Origin: Desulfurispirillum indicum S5
Lineage (GTDB): Bacteria > Chrysiogenota > Chrysiogenetes > Chrysiogenales > Chrysiogenaceae
NCBI RefSeq assembly: GCF_000177635.2
Contig: NC_014836.1
Location: 2,464,001-2,528,000, forward strand
Length of the DNA: 64,000 nt
Reading direction: 5' to 3'
In this document: in pieces, positions 54,527 through 64,000 of the stretch
How the letters are laid out: every line of letters begins with the position of its first letter
Position numbering within the stretch: position 1 is the stretch's first letter
The notes under the pieces: generated by a model
What the model saw: only the letters and a program-made list of their open reading frames with translations
Told to the model about the DNA's origin: nothing
The model's database searches: none
Made by a program: the position numbers and the translations under genes

Positions 54527-55451
54527 GAACTTATCCATAAATTACGCCGATTTTCCTGTATGTGATTATGGCTGCCGCAAGACACGTCAACCCGTAGTGA
54601 GTGACCTCAAGCTTCTCAAAGCGCACATGAATCTTCCTGAAACGGTTGAACCAGGAAATAGATGCTTCCACTATCCAGCGCCTCGCCTTCTTTGATGGGT
54701 CACGCTTCTTGTCCTCGATCTCTTCTTTTCGCTGCTTTACATGGGGTATGTATCCGCGCTGAAGAATGCTGCTGAGCGCCTGCTTTCCCTTGTAGCCACA
54801 ATCTGCGCAAAGATGCTGCTCCTGCTCTGCAGGCTTCTCGAAGACTACGCCATCAAGAACAGCTTCAAGCTGGCTCACATCATGCCGGTTCGCTCCGGTT
54901 ACGACGATGGACAACGGGACGCCACGACCGTCCACCAGGACATGACGCTTGCTCCCGTTTTTTTCCCCGATCCGTCGGGTTCTTCCCTACGGTTTCAAGA
55001 GCCATTGGTGCTTTGTACATTCCGCCATCTATGCTTTGCCACTCCCAGGCAATTCCCTCCATCTCGTCATACTCAGCCAGCCCTTGACGCCAAATAGCTT
55101 CGAATACACCGGCCTTACTCCACTCAATGAAGTACTTGTGCACGGCACTGGCGCAACCAAACTGCTCCTTGGGTATGGCTTTCCACTGGCAACCGGTGCG
55201 CAGCACATAGACAATGCCGGAAAACGCCATTCTGGGGTCAAGTCGCTTCCGTCCGCCACCAGGCTTGCGTTTGTAGGTCTTGTCAGGATCTCTTTGCTGG
55301 ATTGGCAGCAAAGGCTCAACTCTTTGCCAGAAAGCATCTGAGACTTCCCATGATTGCACTTTAGACATAAATCACCGCCATGAATGATCTCTCACTGAAT
55401 CATTCTATAGCAAACTATCATAATGGTCAATAATTATTTATGGACAAGCTC
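54527..55451 (-). mobile_element. IS5-family (IS427-type) element, copy 1
   Basis: 925 bp. Inverted-repeat ends GAACTTATCCATAAAT (54527) and, read leftward from 55451, GAGCTTGTCCATAAAT. A 3-bp target duplication TTA flanks it (54524-54526, 55452-55454). A second copy in the opposite orientation starts at 63160. Confidence 0.9.
54531..55368 (-). CDS. IS5-family transposase, two overlapping frames
   Basis: First frame 55368-54880 (162 residues, MSKVQSWEVSDAFWQRVEPLLP, GGGRKRLDPRMAFSGIVYVLRTGCQWK, first Asp in WQSIDGGMYKAP). Second frame to 54531, DDE remainder: GRGVPLSIVVTGANRHDVSQL, CADCGYKGKQAL and WIVEASISWFNRFRKIHVRFEK. The phases meet at an A7 run (GGGGAAAAAAACGGG); the second is +1 to the first. 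Both copies share this, so programmed frameshifting is likelier than an error. Confidence 0.88.
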
Positions 55452-56999: not shown

Positions 57000-57335
57000 G
57001 TTCGCTTATCCGCCCTACATCTATTCGCGTTTATTCGCGGCCATTCGCGGTAAACCCTGCCTTTCCTTGGCGAGCCTGGCGGCTTGGCGAGAGATATGTC
57101 TTTCCCTCTTTTTCCGTGCCCTCCGTGTTTTCCGTGGTTCAATCTCTCTTTGCCTTTTCCCCGCGCCTCTGCGTGCTCCGCGAGAAACCTGCCTTCACAG
57201 CTCCCTGCATCTATTCGCGTTTATTCGCGTCCATTCGCGGTAAAGCTCCCCCTGCCTTTCCTTGGCGAGCCTGGCGGCTTAGCGCGAGGCATATTTTCCC
57301 CTCTTTATTTCGTGGCTTCCGTGTTTTCTCCCCGT
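57000..57335 (-). repeat. Degenerate intergenic repeat block 2
   Basis: Two rounds of: ATTCGCG-type periodic tract (57020-57050 and 57210-57241), then CTTTCCTTGGCGAGCCTGGCGGCTT (57060 and 57256), with a CCGTGCCCTCCGTGTTTTCCG module between. The periodic tracts are reverse complements of those at 55905 and 56513. The end touches the nrdG stop. Confidence 0.65.
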
Positions 57336-58015
57336 GTTATCACGCGGGAAAACATCTGCGCGAAGCGCTGGTGCGCGGTGGTGAAATCGGTGGCCGACAG
57401 GGGAGAGCGAAAGCGTTTATCCAGCATGGGGGCGCGGTCGCGCAGAAACTGCAGGGCCAGGGGAGCGCTGCCGCAGTGGGCGGCCAGGGCGCGCAGTTCT
57501 TCGGGTTCGGGCAGTTTCCAGAGGGTGTGGCGCAGTTCAAAGGGGATGCTGGCGCTGCACAGATGGGCCAGGCTGGTCAGCAGGGGCTGTATGCTGGTGC
57601 AGGTGCGGGTGATGTGGGCCATGTCGGCATCATTAAAGGCTTTGACGTCTACGGCCACAAAGTCCACCAGTTCCTGTTCCAGCACCTGTTTCAGGCGATG
57701 GGGCAGGGTGCCGTTGGTGTCGAGTTTGATCCGGATTTTCCGGCTGCGCAGCTGTTGCAGCAGGGTTTCAAGTTCCCGCTGAAAAAGGGGCTCGCCGCCG
57801 GTGATGGCGACGGCCCCGATCTGGTGCCGGTCAATGTATTCCAGCAGCTGGTCCTGGCGGCTCCTTCCGGGCTGTCCCAGGACGAGTGCGGGATTGTGGC
57901 AGTAGCGGCAGCGCAGGTTGCAGCCGTGGGTGAAGACGGTGGTGGCGATTTCACCGGGAAAGTCCAGCAGACTGACGGGGGTGAAATCGGCCACCAGGGT
58001 GGGCGTGTGGCTCAT
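57305..58015 (-). CDS. nrdG: Anaerobic ribonucleotide reductase-activating protein (radical SAM)
   Basis: Uses a 4Fe-4S cluster and SAM to make the glycyl radical on NrdD. 236 residues. Cluster motif CNLRCRYC (CxxxCxxC) near residue 33, preceded by LLDFPGEIATTVFTHG, with AITGGEPLFQ and KLDTNGT downstream. The ATG overlaps the stop of the small glycyl-radical gene. The C-terminus runs into repeat DNA. Confidence 0.94.
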   Translation of the reverse strand: MSHTPTLVADFTPVSLLDFPGEIATTVFTHGCNLRCRYCHNPALVLGQPGRSRQDQLLEYIDRHQIGAVAITGGEPLFQRELETLLQQLRSRKIRIKLDTNGTLPHRLKQVLEQELVDFVAVDVKAFNDADMAHITRTCTSIQPLLTSLAHLCSASIPFELRHTLWKLPEPEELRALAAHCGSAPLALQFLRDRAPMLDKRFRSPLSATDFTTAHQRFAQMFSRVITRGENTEATK

Positions 58016-58185
58016 GGGTTGACCGCAAAGGTCTCCCGCTTGCCGAATTCCTCTTTTTTGCCTTCGTTCCAGTGGTTGGTGGGGCTGTGGTAGCCCACGA
58101 CACGGCTGTAGATGTCGCAGGGGGTTCCTTTGACGCTGGCAAGCTGTTCTTCCAGTTGCTGAATCTGTGCTTCGCGCTGGCTCAT
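58012..58185 (-). CDS. Separate glycyl-radical domain of the anaerobic ribonucleotide reductase
   Basis: 57 residues, running from ATG 58185 (overlapping the nrdD stop) to TGA 58012 (overlapping the nrdG start). An N-terminal helix (~1-18) is followed by CDIYSRVVGYHSPTNHWNEG and KKEEFGKRE. RVVGY is the glycyl-radical motif of NrdD C-termini, with the radical expected on G31; the W-N-x-G-K and EEF pattern is also conserved. The large NrdD chain next door lacks this motif, so the two must act together. Confidence 0.82.
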   Translation of the reverse strand: MSQREAQIQQLEEQLASVKGTPCDIYSRVVGYHSPTNHWNEGKKEEFGKRETFAVNP

Positions 58186-60248
58186 GAGTGTGCTCCTGTC
58201 AGATTGATTTCGTGCAGGCCGTCCTGGCCTTTGAGTTCGGTAATCCGGGTCTGAATTTCCTGCCGCTGTTCCTGGGCGCAGTGGGGGCAGTGGGTGTGCT
58301 CGCCCTTGAGGTAGCCGTGAACAGGGCAGATGGAAAATGTCGGTGTGATGGTGATGTAGGGCAGGTGGTAGCGCCGGGTGATGGTGTCCAGCAGTTTGCC
58401 CACGGTGGTGCCGTCCTCCACGGCTTCGCCCAGGAAGATGTGGAAGACGGTCCCCCCGGTGTAGAGGGGCTGCAGCTGATCCTGATGGTCCAGGGCGGCA
58501 AAGAGGTCGCGGGTTTTCTCCACCGGTATCTGGGTGGAGTTGGTGTAGTAGGGGCGCTCTTCAGTACCGGAGGTGATGATGCCGGGAAGGGTCTGGCGGT
58601 CCTTGCGGGCCAGGCGGAACGAGGTGCCTTCGGCGGGGGTGGCCTCCAGGTTGTAGAGCACGTCTTCCTCCAGCTGGAACTGTCCCAGGCGCTCCCGCAT
58701 GAATTCCATGACGCGACGGGAAAATTCCAGCCCTTCGGGATGGGTGATATCCACGCCGATAAAGTTCAGCAGCGCTTCGTTCATGCCGATGATGCCGATG
58801 GTGTTGAAGTGGTTTCGCCAGTACTCGCCAAAGCGCTGATGAATATCCTGCAGGTAAAAGCGGGAATAGGGGTAGAGGCCGTTTTCCGTCAGGCGCTCCA
58901 GGGCCTTGCGTTTGATTTTGAGGCTGTCGCGGGCCAGCTCCATCAGCTCGGCCAGCCGCTCAAAGAAGGCCGTTTCGCTGTCCACGCTGTGGGCGATGCG
59001 GGGCAGGTTGATGGTTACCACGCCAATGGAGCCGGTCAGGGGATTGGCGCCAAAGAGTCCGCCACCGCGCTTGTGCAGTTCCCGATTGTCCAGACGCAGG
59101 CGACAGCACATGCTGCGCGCGTCGTCGGGGCTCATGTCGCTGTTGACGAAGTTGGCAAAGTAGGGGATGCCGTACTTGGCGGTAGTCTCCATCAGCCTGC
59201 CCACCATGGGGTGCTGCCAGTCGAAGTCGCGGCTGACGTTGTAGGTGGGAATGGGGAAGGTGAAGACGCGCCCTTTGGCGTCGCCTTCCATCATCACTTC
59301 CATGAAGGCCTGGTTGAGCATGAACATCTCTTCCTGAAATTCCCCGTAGGTGCGTTCCTGGGGCTTTCCGCCTATGATGACCGGCTCGTCGCGGTGGGTG
59401 GAGGGGACGTACAGGTCCATGGTCAGGTTGGTGAAGGGCGTCTGAAATCCCACGCGGGTGGGGATATTCAGGTTGAAGACGAACTCCTGCATGGCCTGCT
59501 TCACTTCGGGGTAGGTCAGCTGGTCATAGGCGATAAAGGGTGCCAGGCAGGTATCGAAATTGGCAAAGGCCTGGGCCCCCGCGGCTTCCCCCTGCAGGGT
59601 GTAGAAGAAGTTGACCACCTGACCCAGGGCCGAGCGCAGGTGTTTGGCCGGCTTGCTCTCCACCTTGTCGGCCACGCCGCGAAAGCCGCGCACCAGCAGA
59701 TCCTTCAGATCCCAGCCGCAGCAGTACACCGCCAGCAGCCCCAGATCGTGAATGTGAAAGTCGCCACGGGAGTGGGCTTCCTGCACCTGGCGCGGATAGA
59801 TCTTATTGAGCCAGTAGCGGGCGGTGATGGTGGAAGAGATGTAGTTGTTGAGCCCCTGCAGCGCATAGGTGGTGTTGCTGTTTTCGTTGACCCGCCAGTC
59901 GCTGCCGCCCAGGTAGGATTCCACGATGCTCTCCAGACCTTCGAAGCTTTCGGTCATGGCCCGCATGTCGGCGCGCTGGTGGCGGTAGATGATATAGGCT
60001 TTGGCGGTTTTGGCGTGGCCACCCTCGATGAGAACCTTTTCCACGCAGTCCTGCACCTGCTCTACGGTGCAGGAACCGTACTGGCCGTACTGGTCCACCA
60101 GGGCGCGCAGCACCTGCAGGGAGAGGGCCGAGGCAATGTTACGGTCGCTGCCGCCCACCGAACGGGCGGCCTTGAAGATGGCAGTGGCGATGCGCTCCTG
60201 GTCGAAGGGGACAAAACGACCATCGCGCTTCATGACAGTAGTGATCAT
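58182..60248 (-). CDS. nrdD: Anaerobic (class III) ribonucleoside-triphosphate reductase, large chain without glycyl-radical tail
   Basis: Makes dNTPs without oxygen. 688 residues. N-terminal ATP-cone (~1-90: MITTVMKRDGRFVPFDQERIA... AYIIYRHQRAD), ten-stranded barrel (FHIHDLGLLAVYCCGWDLKDLL, QTPFTNLTMDL, FANFVNSDMSPDDARSMCCRLRL) and a C-terminal zinc site with C641, C654, C657 (CPVHGY...CPHC). The chain ends 31 residues later without RVVGY. GGAG precedes ATG 60248. A cobalamin riboswitch lies upstream. Confidence 0.95.
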   Translation of the reverse strand: MITTVMKRDGRFVPFDQERIATAIFKAARSVGGSDRNIASALSLQVLRALVDQYGQYGSCTVEQVQDCVEKVLIEGGHAKTAKAYIIYRHQRADMRAMTESFEGLESIVESYLGGSDWRVNENSNTTYALQGLNNYISSTITARYWLNKIYPRQVQEAHSRGDFHIHDLGLLAVYCCGWDLKDLLVRGFRGVADKVESKPAKHLRSALGQVVNFFYTLQGEAAGAQAFANFDTCLAPFIAYDQLTYPEVKQAMQEFVFNLNIPTRVGFQTPFTNLTMDLYVPSTHRDEPVIIGGKPQERTYGEFQEEMFMLNQAFMEVMMEGDAKGRVFTFPIPTYNVSRDFDWQHPMVGRLMETTAKYGIPYFANFVNSDMSPDDARSMCCRLRLDNRELHKRGGGLFGANPLTGSIGVVTINLPRIAHSVDSETAFFERLAELMELARDSLKIKRKALERLTENGLYPYSRFYLQDIHQRFGEYWRNHFNTIGIIGMNEALLNFIGVDITHPEGLEFSRRVMEFMRERLGQFQLEEDVLYNLEATPAEGTSFRLARKDRQTLPGIITSGTEERPYYTNSTQIPVEKTRDLFAALDHQDQLQPLYTGGTVFHIFLGEAVEDGTTVGKLLDTITRRYHLPYITITPTFSICPVHGYLKGEHTHCPHCAQEQRQEIQTRITELKGQDGLHEINLTGAHS

Positions 60249-60445
60249 AGTTCAGGCTCCGTGGCTTCCGCCACTGTCCGTCCGCGAAGACGGCACATCA
60301 TCCCGGCAAATATCCGGGCAGGCAGTGGCAGGGGTACGCATGTGATGAAAGAAATGGGTACGTGGGCCGCAGAGCGCTGGCTACAAAAGACGGGAACGTG
60401 AAGACAGAACTTCCATAGGAACATCCCTCCGCTGTGTGTTCTCGG

Positions 60446-60594
60446 GGCAGGTATCCTGGCTCGCCATCATCCTCAGCTCCGCCTTCCCGTGTTGTCACAG
60501 TGGCGCATGGAGCCTTGTCCGGCTTACAGTTGCGGGGGCAGCGACGGATTTTCACCGCACTTCCCTGAATCCCGGATCGATATAGTGCCCTGCC
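60446..60594 (-). promoter_or_regulatory. Cobalamin (AdoCbl) riboswitch controlling nrdD-nrdG
   Basis: On the minus strand: GGCAGG (60594-60589) opens a stem closed by CCTGCC (60451-60446). Between them are CAGGGAAGTGCGGTGAAAAT, the core CTGCCCCCGCAACTGTAAGC, GCCACTGTG, CACGGGAAGGC and the B12 box GCGAGCCAGGATACCTGCC. These are the standard conserved blocks in order. About 200 nt separate it from the nrdD start and contain further hairpins (CCCGG/CCGGG; CCGTC/GACGG) that may form the expression platform. Confidence 0.93.
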
Positions 60595-60719
60595 TCTGCG
60601 ACCATGTCAACGGAAGATTTCCCACCCCCGGCTTCCCTTGATTGCCACGGGTTTCTGGAGTAGTATCTGCCCATCGGACTCGTATTTTTTTATCCATCTC
60701 GAATATCAGGAGGCATTCC

Positions 60720-61217
60720 ATGCATGAAAAAAGTATAGCTCTGCTGAACAAGGCCGTATCTGAAGAAATCGCCGCGCTCCACCAGTATATGTATTTCCAC
60801 TTTCACTGTGACGACCAGGGCTACGACCTGCTGGCCGGGCTCTTCAAGCGCACCGCCATCGAAGAGATGATCCACGTGGAGCGTCTGGCCGAGCGCATCC
60901 TCTTCCTGGGTGGCGACGTGGAAATGAAAGCCGGCTCCAACGTTATTCCAGAACAGGACGTGAATAAAATGCTGGAAATGGCTGCCAAAATGGAAGAGCA
61001 GAGCGCCATGGACTATAACCGCTGGGCCAACGAGTGCGGCACCAACGCCGACTCGGTCTCCAAGAAACTCTTCGAGGATCTGGTCATGGATGAAGAGCGT
61101 CACTACGACCAGTATGACAACGAAATCGACAACCTCAAGCGTTTTGGCGAAAACTACCTGGCCCTGCAGTCCATTGAGCGCAGCAAGAGCCGCAGCGCCG
61201 GACAGCCCGCAGAGTAA
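60720..61217 (+). CDS. bfr: Bacterioferritin
   Basis: Iron-storage cage protein. 165 residues from ATG 60720 with AGGAGG upstream; a longer frame to 60642 overlaps the riboswitch leader region of the other strand. Ferroxidase-type residues: VSEEIAALHQYMYFHFHC, AIEEMIHVERLAERILFLGGD (E-x-x-H, with the Met that can bind heme), and VMDEERHYDQYDNEI (E-x-x-H). It lies next to FecI/FecR, an iron-uptake regulatory pair. Confidence 0.9.
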   Translation: MHEKSIALLNKAVSEEIAALHQYMYFHFHCDDQGYDLLAGLFKRTAIEEMIHVERLAERILFLGGDVEMKAGSNVIPEQDVNKMLEMAAKMEEQSAMDYNRWANECGTNADSVSKKLFEDLVMDEERHYDQYDNEIDNLKRFGENYLALQSIERSKSRSAGQPAE

Positions 61218-61478: not shown

Positions 61479-61994
61479 ATGTCAGATCAGAATCCCCACG
61501 ACATCTACCGCAACCACCACAAGGATATCCTGCGCTATTTCTCCAGCCGCGTATCCTCTTCCGGAACAGCGGCAGACCTGACCCAGGAAACCTTCCTGCG
61601 CCTGCTGCGCAGCTCCATCTCCCTGCTCAATCCCAAAGCGTACCTGCTGAAAGTTGCCCACAATGTACTGATCGACTACTATCGATCCGCGAGCCACATG
61701 CCCGTGGAGGATATCAGCCCCGAAGAACTGGAAAGTGCCATGGGCCGGGCTCCCTCAGCCGAAGACACCGCTTTGTCCCGTGAAGAGCTGGCAATCCTCA
61801 TGGATGCCATCGCGGAACTGCCCCCCAGGGCCAGGGAGGTCTTCCGGCTCAAGCGCCTGGAAGGGTTGAGTTACAGCGAAATCGGACAACAGCTTGGCAT
61901 CACGCGCAGCACTATCATGGAACATATGGCCCGCGCCCTCACCCACTGCACCAGACGCCTGGATGAGTACGCCACGCAACAGGAGAAATCATGA
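61479..61994 (+). CDS. FecI-type ECF sigma factor
   Basis: Extracytoplasmic-function sigma factor, 171 residues. Region 2 (~8-75: YRNHHKDILRYFSSRV...DLTQETFLRLLRS) and region 4 (~105-165: LPPRAREVFRLKRLEGLSYSEIGQQLGITRSTIMEHMARAL) with the linked HTH. GGAAGAGGG precedes the ATG. Overlaps the fecR-type anti-sigma gene by ATGA. Such pairs normally switch on an outer-membrane siderophore or heme receptor gene next door. Confidence 0.9.
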   Translation: MSDQNPHDIYRNHHKDILRYFSSRVSSSGTAADLTQETFLRLLRSSISLLNPKAYLLKVAHNVLIDYYRSASHMPVEDISPEELESAMGRAPSAEDTALSREELAILMDAIAELPPRAREVFRLKRLEGLSYSEIGQQLGITRSTIMEHMARALTHCTRRLDEYATQQEKS

Positions 61995-62974
61995 GCCAGC
62001 ACCCGGAGACCTCCTTCACCCCGGACCTTTCATCACCCCAGAAACAGAGTCCAGACGAGCAGGCCATCGCCTGGCTTGTACGCCTGCAGGACGACCAGGC
62101 CAGCGAAACCGACCGCCGCGCCTGGTCCGCGTGGATGGACCAGAACCCCATCCACGCCCAATCCTGGCGGAAAATACAGCGCATCTGGCACGGCATGGAG
62201 GACCTGGCCCCGCGCCGGGCCAGCACCACCTTTCGCCACCGGGCACTCCGGCAACGCGCCTGGTCCACCCTGGCCACCGCCGCCGCCGTCCTTCTGGTGG
62301 TCGCAGGCATCACAAGTATCAGCCTGCACCACTCTCCCGGTCTGCACTGCCTGGGCGCAGACTACTGCACCCGTGCCGGTGAGCTGCGCCAGATTACCCT
62401 GGCAGACGGCTCCCGCATCTCCCTGGGGGCCGCTTCGGCCATCAGCGTCCAGATGGAAAACCACCAGCGCCAGGTAACCCTGCGCCATGGCGAAGGGTTC
62501 TTTGACGTTGCCCCCGACACAACTCCTTTCCGGGTAAAAGCCGCCGCAGGCGAAGTCCGCGTGCTGGGCACCAGCTTCAACCTGCGCCTTGAGCCCGCTG
62601 GCGCCAGGGTCGCCGTGGCCAGCGGCCAGGTGGAAGTTGACACCCTGGGGCACCAGGTAACCCTGAACCCCGGCCAGGTACTGCACTACGACACCAGCCG
62701 TCTCCAGCGCCTGCCCGACGTGGATGTCAACAGCATCGGCCTGTGGCGCCAGAAGCGCCTGCTCTACCAGAACACCCCGCTGGGTGAAGTCCTGCGCGAC
62801 CTGGAGCGCTACCACAGCGCCCGCTTCAGCGTCGACCCGGACGTGGCCGCCATCCCGGTAACCGGAATATTCAGCGCCAGCGACCCCGAAGCAGCCCTGC
62901 ACAGCATCGTCAACAGCTTTCCCGTGCGCATGAGCCGCTACACCCATTTTTTCATCCGCATATCCGCCAACTGA
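61991..62974 (+). CDS. FecR-type anti-sigma/signal-transfer protein
   Basis: Inner-membrane partner of the sigma factor, 327 residues. N-terminal cytoplasmic DUF4880-like domain (~20-70: AIAWLVRLQDDQASETDRRAWSAWMDQNP), one membrane helix (~93-112), then the periplasmic FecR domain (TLADGSRISLGAAS... GEGFFDVAPDTTPFRVKAAAGEVRVLGTSFNLR) and a C-terminal secretin/TonB short-N-type tail (LERYHSARFSVDPDVAAIPVTG) that contacts the receptor. Confidence 0.9.
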   Translation: MSQHPETSFTPDLSSPQKQSPDEQAIAWLVRLQDDQASETDRRAWSAWMDQNPIHAQSWRKIQRIWHGMEDLAPRRASTTFRHRALRQRAWSTLATAAAVLLVVAGITSISLHHSPGLHCLGADYCTRAGELRQITLADGSRISLGAASAISVQMENHQRQVTLRHGEGFFDVAPDTTPFRVKAAAGEVRVLGTSFNLRLEPAGARVAVASGQVEVDTLGHQVTLNPGQVLHYDTSRLQRLPDVDVNSIGLWRQKRLLYQNTPLGEVLRDLERYHSARFSVDPDVAAIPVTGIFSASDPEAALHSIVNSFPVRMSRYTHFFIRISAN

Positions 62975-63159: not shown

Positions 63160-64000
63160 GAGCTTGTCCATAAATAATTATTGACCATTATGATAGTTTG
63201 CTATAGAATGATTCAGTGAGAGATCATTCATGGCGGTGATTTATGTCTAAAGTGCAATCATGGGAAGTCTCAGATGCTTTCTGGCAAAGAGTTGAGCCTT
63301 TGCTGCCAATCCAGCAAAGAGATCCTGACAAGACCTACAAACGCAAGCCTGGTGGCGGACGGAAGCGACTTGACCCCAGAATGGCGTTTTCCGGCATTGT
63401 CTATGTGCTGCGCACCGGTTGCCAGTGGAAAGCCATACCCAAGGAGCAGTTTGGTTGCGCCAGTGCCGTGCACAAGTACTTCATTGAGTGGAGTAAGGCC
63501 GGTGTATTCGAAGCTATTTGGCGTCAAGGGCTGGCTGAGTATGACGAGATGGAGGGAATTGCCTGGGAGTGGCAAAGCATAGATGGCGGAATGTACAAAG
63601 CACCAATGGCTCTTGAAACCGTAGGGAAGAACCCGACGGATCGGGGAAAAAAACGGGAGCAAGCGTCATGTCCTGGTGGACGGTCGTGGCGTCCCGTTGT
63701 CCATCGTCGTAACCGGAGCGAACCGGCATGATGTGAGCCAGCTTGAAGCTGTTCTTGATGGCGTAGTCTTCGAGAAGCCTGCAGAGCAGGAGCAGCATCT
63801 TTGCGCAGATTGTGGCTACAAGGGAAAGCAGGCGCTCAGCAGCATTCTTCAGCGCGGATACATACCCCATGTAAAGCAGCGAAAAGAAGAGATCGAGGAC
63901 AAGAAGCGTGACCCATCAAAGAAGGCGAGGCGCTGGATAGTGGAAGCATCTATTTCCTGGTTCAACCGTTTCAGGAAGATTCATGTGCGCTTTGAGAAGC
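63160..64000 (+). mobile_element. IS5-family (IS427-type) element, copy 2, cut by the window edge
   Basis: Left end GAGCTTGTCCATAAAT at 63160, preceded by TTA as expected for the target site. It runs to the window end (841 of about 925 bp) in the opposite orientation to copy 1 at 54527-55451. Confidence 0.9.
63243..64000 (+). CDS. IS5-family transposase, two overlapping frames, partial
   Basis: First frame 63243-63731 is identical in protein sequence to the copy 1 first frame (162 residues). The second frame continues from about 63676 in the +1 phase and remains open to the window edge (…WFNRFRKIHVRFEK). The phase change is again at the A7 run near 63645-63651. As copy 1, it would need frameshifting for a full transposase. 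Confidence 0.88.

Follow-up and report, generated by a model that had tools for sequence, protein, structure and literature searches.

Computational analysis of a 64,000-nucleotide stretch of the Desulfurispirillum indicum S5 genome (hereafter, the window) identified a cobalamin aptamer in front of the genes of an anaerobic ribonucleotide reductase and its activating protein, nrdDG. The association is conserved among relatives, the genome also encodes a B12-dependent isozyme, and a conserved hairpin and start codon follow the aptamer. On balance, this arrangement is probably a cobalamin OFF switch that acts on a short upstream open reading frame (uORF) in the leader, from which the signal would be relayed to nrdDG.

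The nrdDG genes and their riboswitch

Both proteins score above the curated cut-offs of class III families, namely, NrdD with 1022 bits for NF006126 (cut-off 548) and 537.6 bits for TIGR02487 (cut-off 326), and NrdG with 150.7 bits for TIGR02495 (cut-off 131.15). The translated C-terminus of NrdD contains the CPxHGY region (CPVHGYLKGEHTHCPHC), which we take to be the glycyl-radical/zinc region. The gene pair and the elements of the riboswitch and its promoter are as follows:

58182..60248, minus strand: nrdD, anaerobic (class III) ribonucleoside-triphosphate reductase, 688 amino acids (NF006126, TIGR02487)
57305..58015, minus strand: nrdG, radical-SAM activating protein, 236 amino acids (TIGR02495)
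60440..60576, minus strand: putative functional cobalamin aptamer, ends inferred from the RF00174 match and the arm
60574-60564 with 60451-60443, minus strand: closing arm CGGG-AUU-CAGG / CCUG-C-CCCG (duplex -12.8 kcal/mol)
60446..60459, minus strand: B12-box core CCAGGATACCTGCC (Rfam alignment)
60605..60610, minus strand: predicted -35 element TTGACA (6/6 match, 17-nt spacer; relatives alike in position)
60582..60587, minus strand: predicted, weak -10 element CACTAT (from the sequence; site kept in relatives)

A cmscan search of the whole 64-kb window returned a single match to RF00174, at 60621..60429 on the minus strand, with 90.6 bits (E 4.1e-21; the gathering score of the family is 31.5 bits). 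It includes the conserved core and the B12 box and lies on the nrdD strand, 180 nt upstream of nrdDG, which confirms the cobalamin riboswitch that had been proposed before nrdD in a sequence-only reading. The interval claimed there, 60446-60594, holds the conserved core and approximates the functional element better than the Rfam match does. In the Rfam alignment, the 5' helix (the first ~40 nt) consists mostly of non-standard pairs according to the NC line, and a short fused arm takes the place of the consensus full-length P1/P2 helix. P1/P2 is a peripheral helix that varies within the RF00174 family, and membership stands without it because it rests on the core, which is present; the aptamer also has a P8-P12 extension (GCCACUG...CGGGAAGGC).

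Because a predicted sigma-70-type promoter sits within the 5' portion of the region matched by Rfam, we infer that the real aptamer is shorter, spanning approximately 60576-60440, and is closed by the short fused arm. The arm duplex of the window is stronger than 12 of 13 cross-family swaps, and native arm pairs average -10.6 kcal/mol, compared with -6.2 kcal/mol for the swaps, the native mean being weakened by a shortened 5' arm in three rows of the comparison (L097, L100 and L109).

The -10 hexamer, with 3/6 matches, was missed by the generic promoter scan, which needed 4/6 per hexamer; at the same place, relatives have CAGAAT, CAAAAT, TATAAT, TAATAT and others. A sigma-70-type site ends 7-17 nt upstream of the aptamer core in nearly all relatives, although in the promoter comparison a site farther upstream scores higher in L109, L110 and L108, and L112 differs. 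The transcript would probably start near 60577-60574. The weakness of the -10 hexamer counts against the proposed model. A role of the P1 3' strand as a Shine-Dalgarno (SD) mimic pairing with an upstream UCUUCCGUUG was considered and rejected, because the latter strand lies upstream of the predicted transcription start and is absent in G002, a genome of another genus of the same family.

B12-dependent and B12-independent isozymes

The sequence-only reading had predicted a class II reductase elsewhere in the genome, and one intact nrdJ gene was indeed found, with 714.5 bits for TIGR02504 (cut-off 400). Its product of 756 amino acids is the sole Ribonuc_red_lgC (PF02867) protein recovered by the family search of the genome, in which no match to a NrdB-type small subunit was obtained, and NrdDG is the only B12-free reductase found in the genome. 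D. indicum S5T is an obligate anaerobe (PMC3368425).

A covariance search of the single 2,928,377-base contig yielded five cobalamin riboswitches, and the other four precede a BtuB-type receptor gene (followed by a BtuC-type permease gene), the cobalt importer genes cbiM-cbiQ-cbiO, a cobT/cobA/cobD cluster and metE, with CbiC encoded ~12 kb from the cobT riboswitch. Genes for B12 synthesis, a check suggested by the sequence-only reading, are present, as are genes for B12 uptake. The riboswitches of biosynthesis and uptake score 124-131 bits, compared with 90.6 bits for that of nrdD. A search of the 10 kb around nrdJ gave no riboswitch, and metH is intact, so that the two B12-independent isozymes, metE and nrdD, carry a switch, whereas nrdJ has none nearby. 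It should be noted that an apparent interruption of metH by an in-frame TGA proved to be the natural end of the frame, and that all tRNA-Sec matches fell below the cut-off, the six best being read by ARAGORN as ordinary tRNAs.

A conserved hairpin and start codon behind the aptamer

Directly after the aptamer arm lies a hairpin, which is followed by a start codon. The leader contains the following features:

60421..60435, minus strand: hairpin ACAGC-GGAGG-GAUGU (covariation, 14 sequences)
60430-60426, minus strand: SD-like GGAGG in the hairpin loop (sequence)
60381..60416, minus strand: predicted uORF, MEVLSSRSRLL and stop, with its ATG 9 nt after GGAGG (conserved ATG spacing)
60245..60424, minus strand: alternative uORF of 59 amino acids, overlapping the nrdD start as ATGA (ORF list)
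60305..60384, minus strand: stretch between uORF and nrdD with much C and little G, a candidate region for Rho loading (composition)
60257..60260, minus strand: SD-like GGAG of nrdD itself (sequence)

Across the 14 sequences, 85.7% of the hairpin cells are paired and 9 cells are changed on both sides; this covariation score was reached by none of 500 shuffles and was near zero in all slid controls. An ATG is located 5-9 nt past GGAGG in 14 of 15 leaders, compared with a chance expectation of ~0.1 per leader, and these leaders belong to six families, a fairer count given that the leaders are related rather than independent. The fifteenth leader (L110) has TTG in place of ATG, and at 10-49 nt past GGAGG every 5-nt bin contains an ATG in 0 of the 15 leaders. 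An SD motif and the start codon of a short ORF ahead of the gene thus adjoin the riboswitch, as in a relay of the ppe2 type (see below). Behind other B12 riboswitches of the phylum, this slot is occupied either by the start of the first gene itself (L149, L161 and L162) or by a short ORF with a good ribosome site (L141, L143, L146, L156 and L159), which favours a genuine start of translation over a coincidence of structure. A platform hairpin, CCTTCCCGGGTATGGAAGG, is common to three B12 riboswitches of the genome (L008:5367-5460, L009:5061-5150 and L010:4722-4830) and occurs also in G002 and in G001, a second genome of the family.

The uORFs of the relatives comprise 6-46 codons and have no common peptide sequence; they end anywhere from 158 nt upstream of nrdD to 47 nt inside it (132 nt upstream in the window), and the nrdD start lies 75-247 nt beyond the uORF start region. 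The lack of conservation of both the peptides and the stop position relative to nrdD counts against a uORF relay, as does one relative (L112) without hairpin and uORF. Moreover, nrdD has its own GGAG, and in most relatives its ribosome site is stronger than that of the window, so that the uORF may not be needed. The frame of the alternative 59-residue ORF is open in G002, but its ATG is only 1 nt from GGAGG, and it was rejected as a conserved coding frame, given that most of the 10 substitutions relative to G002 alter residues. The AUGA overlap with the nrdD start belongs to this poorly spaced ORF only and not to the well-spaced ORF of 11 amino acids.

The window leader showed neither a clear L5-L13 kissing partner nor an anti-SD element for the uORF start. 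The GGAGG loop itself was rejected as L13, because L5 (UGAAAAU type) is not complementary to it; candidate L13 partners, judged by eye, are good in few relatives only and weak in the window. The leaders of L107 and L108 contain an AAUAA-UUUUCCA-UUAUU hairpin right behind the uORF start, and in L107 its loop complements L5 (UGGAAAG), making it a candidate P13/L13 kissing loop within the uORF (by eye).

The proposed mechanism and its alternatives

The model that we favour would operate as follows. When adenosylcobalamin, the presumed ligand, is plentiful, the aptamer would fold such that the GGAGG hairpin and the uORF start codon are masked and the short uORF is not translated. As a consequence, nrdDG would be switched off, either by Rho termination in the C-rich leader or because ribosomes would not reach the nrdD start, and the cell would rely on NrdJ, which uses the same cofactor; when B12 is absent, the uORF would be translated and NrdDG would be made. 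The leader of the window has up to 27 C and 10 G per 60 nt, and 357 C compared with 238 G were counted over 15 leaders; a generic scan of the nrdD leader returned no intrinsic terminator.

An ordinary translational B12 OFF switch that acts directly on the nrdD start, with the uORF being incidental, appears rather unlikely. In the minimum-energy fold, CAGCGCUCUG of the window (60379-60370) pairs with CGGAGCCUG over the nrdD SD motif, and several relatives of family f2 have CCUCC hairpins over this motif, in agreement with such direct masking. However, several families have no CCUCC anti-SD elements, and the element next to the aptamer that is kept in nearly all relatives is located at the uORF and not at nrdD, which begins 75-247 nt further downstream. 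Folding of the window leader is not more stable than that of shuffled sequences (z-score near zero), which speaks against direct masking and also counts against the uORF model. We consider it highly improbable that the GGA-loop hairpin is instead a binding site for CsrA, adding carbon-storage control with the neighbouring start codon being secondary: CsrA is encoded in the genome, and a GGA in a hairpin loop that overlaps a ribosome site resembles CsrA sites, but the loop here, GGAGG, is closed by a C-G pair, the window does not preserve the A(N)GGA context, and the start codon is kept at a fixed distance.

It is harder still to believe that the riboswitch has lost its function and is a relic that came in with transferred nrdDG genes, despite the apparent horizontal transfer of the cassette (see below) and a score below those of the switches for biosynthesis and uptake in this genome. 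Between the window and G002 the core has not changed, while positions in the leader differ; the arm and the hairpin covary across families, and all 17 scanned relatives that have nrdD with its upstream DNA retain the switch.

Conservation in relatives and probable horizontal transfer

Among 30 related genomes, 20 contain nrdD, and NrdJ was matched in every one of these, in 19 above the cut-off and in one as a fragment that lies at the edge of a contig. RF00174 precedes nrdD in 17/17 of the scanned relatives that have nrdD together with upstream DNA. A block of the window, 57316-60593, is 97.4% identical to G002, although the flanks are unrelated and the nrdJ loci of the two genomes are only 74-87% identical; the upstream edge of the shared block lies between the -35 and -10 elements. 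In a quick tree, the NrdD proteins of the window and of G002 fall with good support inside the f2 group, which matches named Deferribacterales records, while NrdD of the family member G001 is far off on a long branch, with a placement that is accordingly unsure. The riboswitch-nrdDG cassette looks horizontally transferred, and the block shared with G002 fits a recent transfer of riboswitch and nrdDG together.

A transposase gene is present twice, at 54531-55368 on the minus strand and at 63243-64000 on the plus strand; the copies encode identical protein fragments in opposite orientation and flank the region of nrdGD, a ferritin-like gene and a sigma factor; a related copy is located at L010:10687. 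The ferritin-like gene (60723-61217, plus strand; bacterioferritin/rubrerythrin-like, TIGR00754 below cut-off) is divergent from nrdD, and it is followed at 61479-62974 on the plus strand by an ORF pair that by eye resembles a FecI-type sigma factor and a FecR-type regulator.

Relation to known systems

Control of a B12-independent enzyme by B12 where a B12-dependent isozyme exists, as assumed in the sequence-only reading, has a precedent: in 2004, B12 elements were described upstream of nrdDG in Desulfovibrio vulgaris and Desulfuromonas, whose genomes also encode NrdJ (PMC545781). The proposed logic is the same as in D. indicum, in another lineage; neither a uORF nor an SD hairpin platform is described in that passage. 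In Propionibacterium acnes, cobalamin riboswitches precede nrdAB and nrdDG but not nrdJ, as in D. indicum for the latter two, and RNA-seq fits down-regulation (PMC3848588). P. acnes has a class I nrdAB in addition, whereas no NrdB was found in D. indicum. In Streptomyces, coenzyme B12 controls a B12-independent reductase via the nrdABS riboswitch (Borovok 2006, as cited in PMC5962746). The Streptomyces switch controls an aerobic class I enzyme, whereas that of D. indicum precedes class III. Streptomyces also has a B12-dependent reductase.

The closest parallel to the leader architecture is ppe2 of Mycobacterium tuberculosis, a proposed translational OFF switch in which a uORF (uPPE2) that is controlled by the riboswitch and needed for ppe2 expression lies behind a fused P1-P3 arm (PMC11260477). 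Common to both are the fused arm and a short ORF between aptamer and gene. Yet uPPE2 overlaps its gene by AUGA and ppe2 has no SD motif, whereas the likely uORF of D. indicum ends well upstream of nrdD, which has one; the ppe2 aptamer lacks the P8-P12 extension, and the target genes differ.

The riboswitch-nrdDG arrangement in the presence of NrdJ is a further case of an already published logic. New are the conserved hairpin-uORF platform and the apparent transfer of the cassette, neither of which is described for nrdDG in the literature searched; the promoter placement, the uORF and the transfer history go beyond the sequence-only reading. A tentative generalization, to which we give slightly less than even credence, is that across the phylum that holds the Deferribacter and Chrysiogenes relatives the switch acts on a sequence-variable leader ORF and not on nrdD, that its translation is relayed to nrdDG, and that switch, ORF and nrdDG travel together from genus to genus as a single cassette.

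For D. indicum, the arrangement would mean that a strict anaerobe without a detected NrdB chooses between two reductases on the basis of the cofactor, with the B12-free enzyme as the sole back-up for DNA precursor synthesis. If true, the uORF layout would mean that the riboswitch-uORF relay, demonstrated until now in mycobacteria, also occurs in another phylum, where numerous natural variants could be used to test it.
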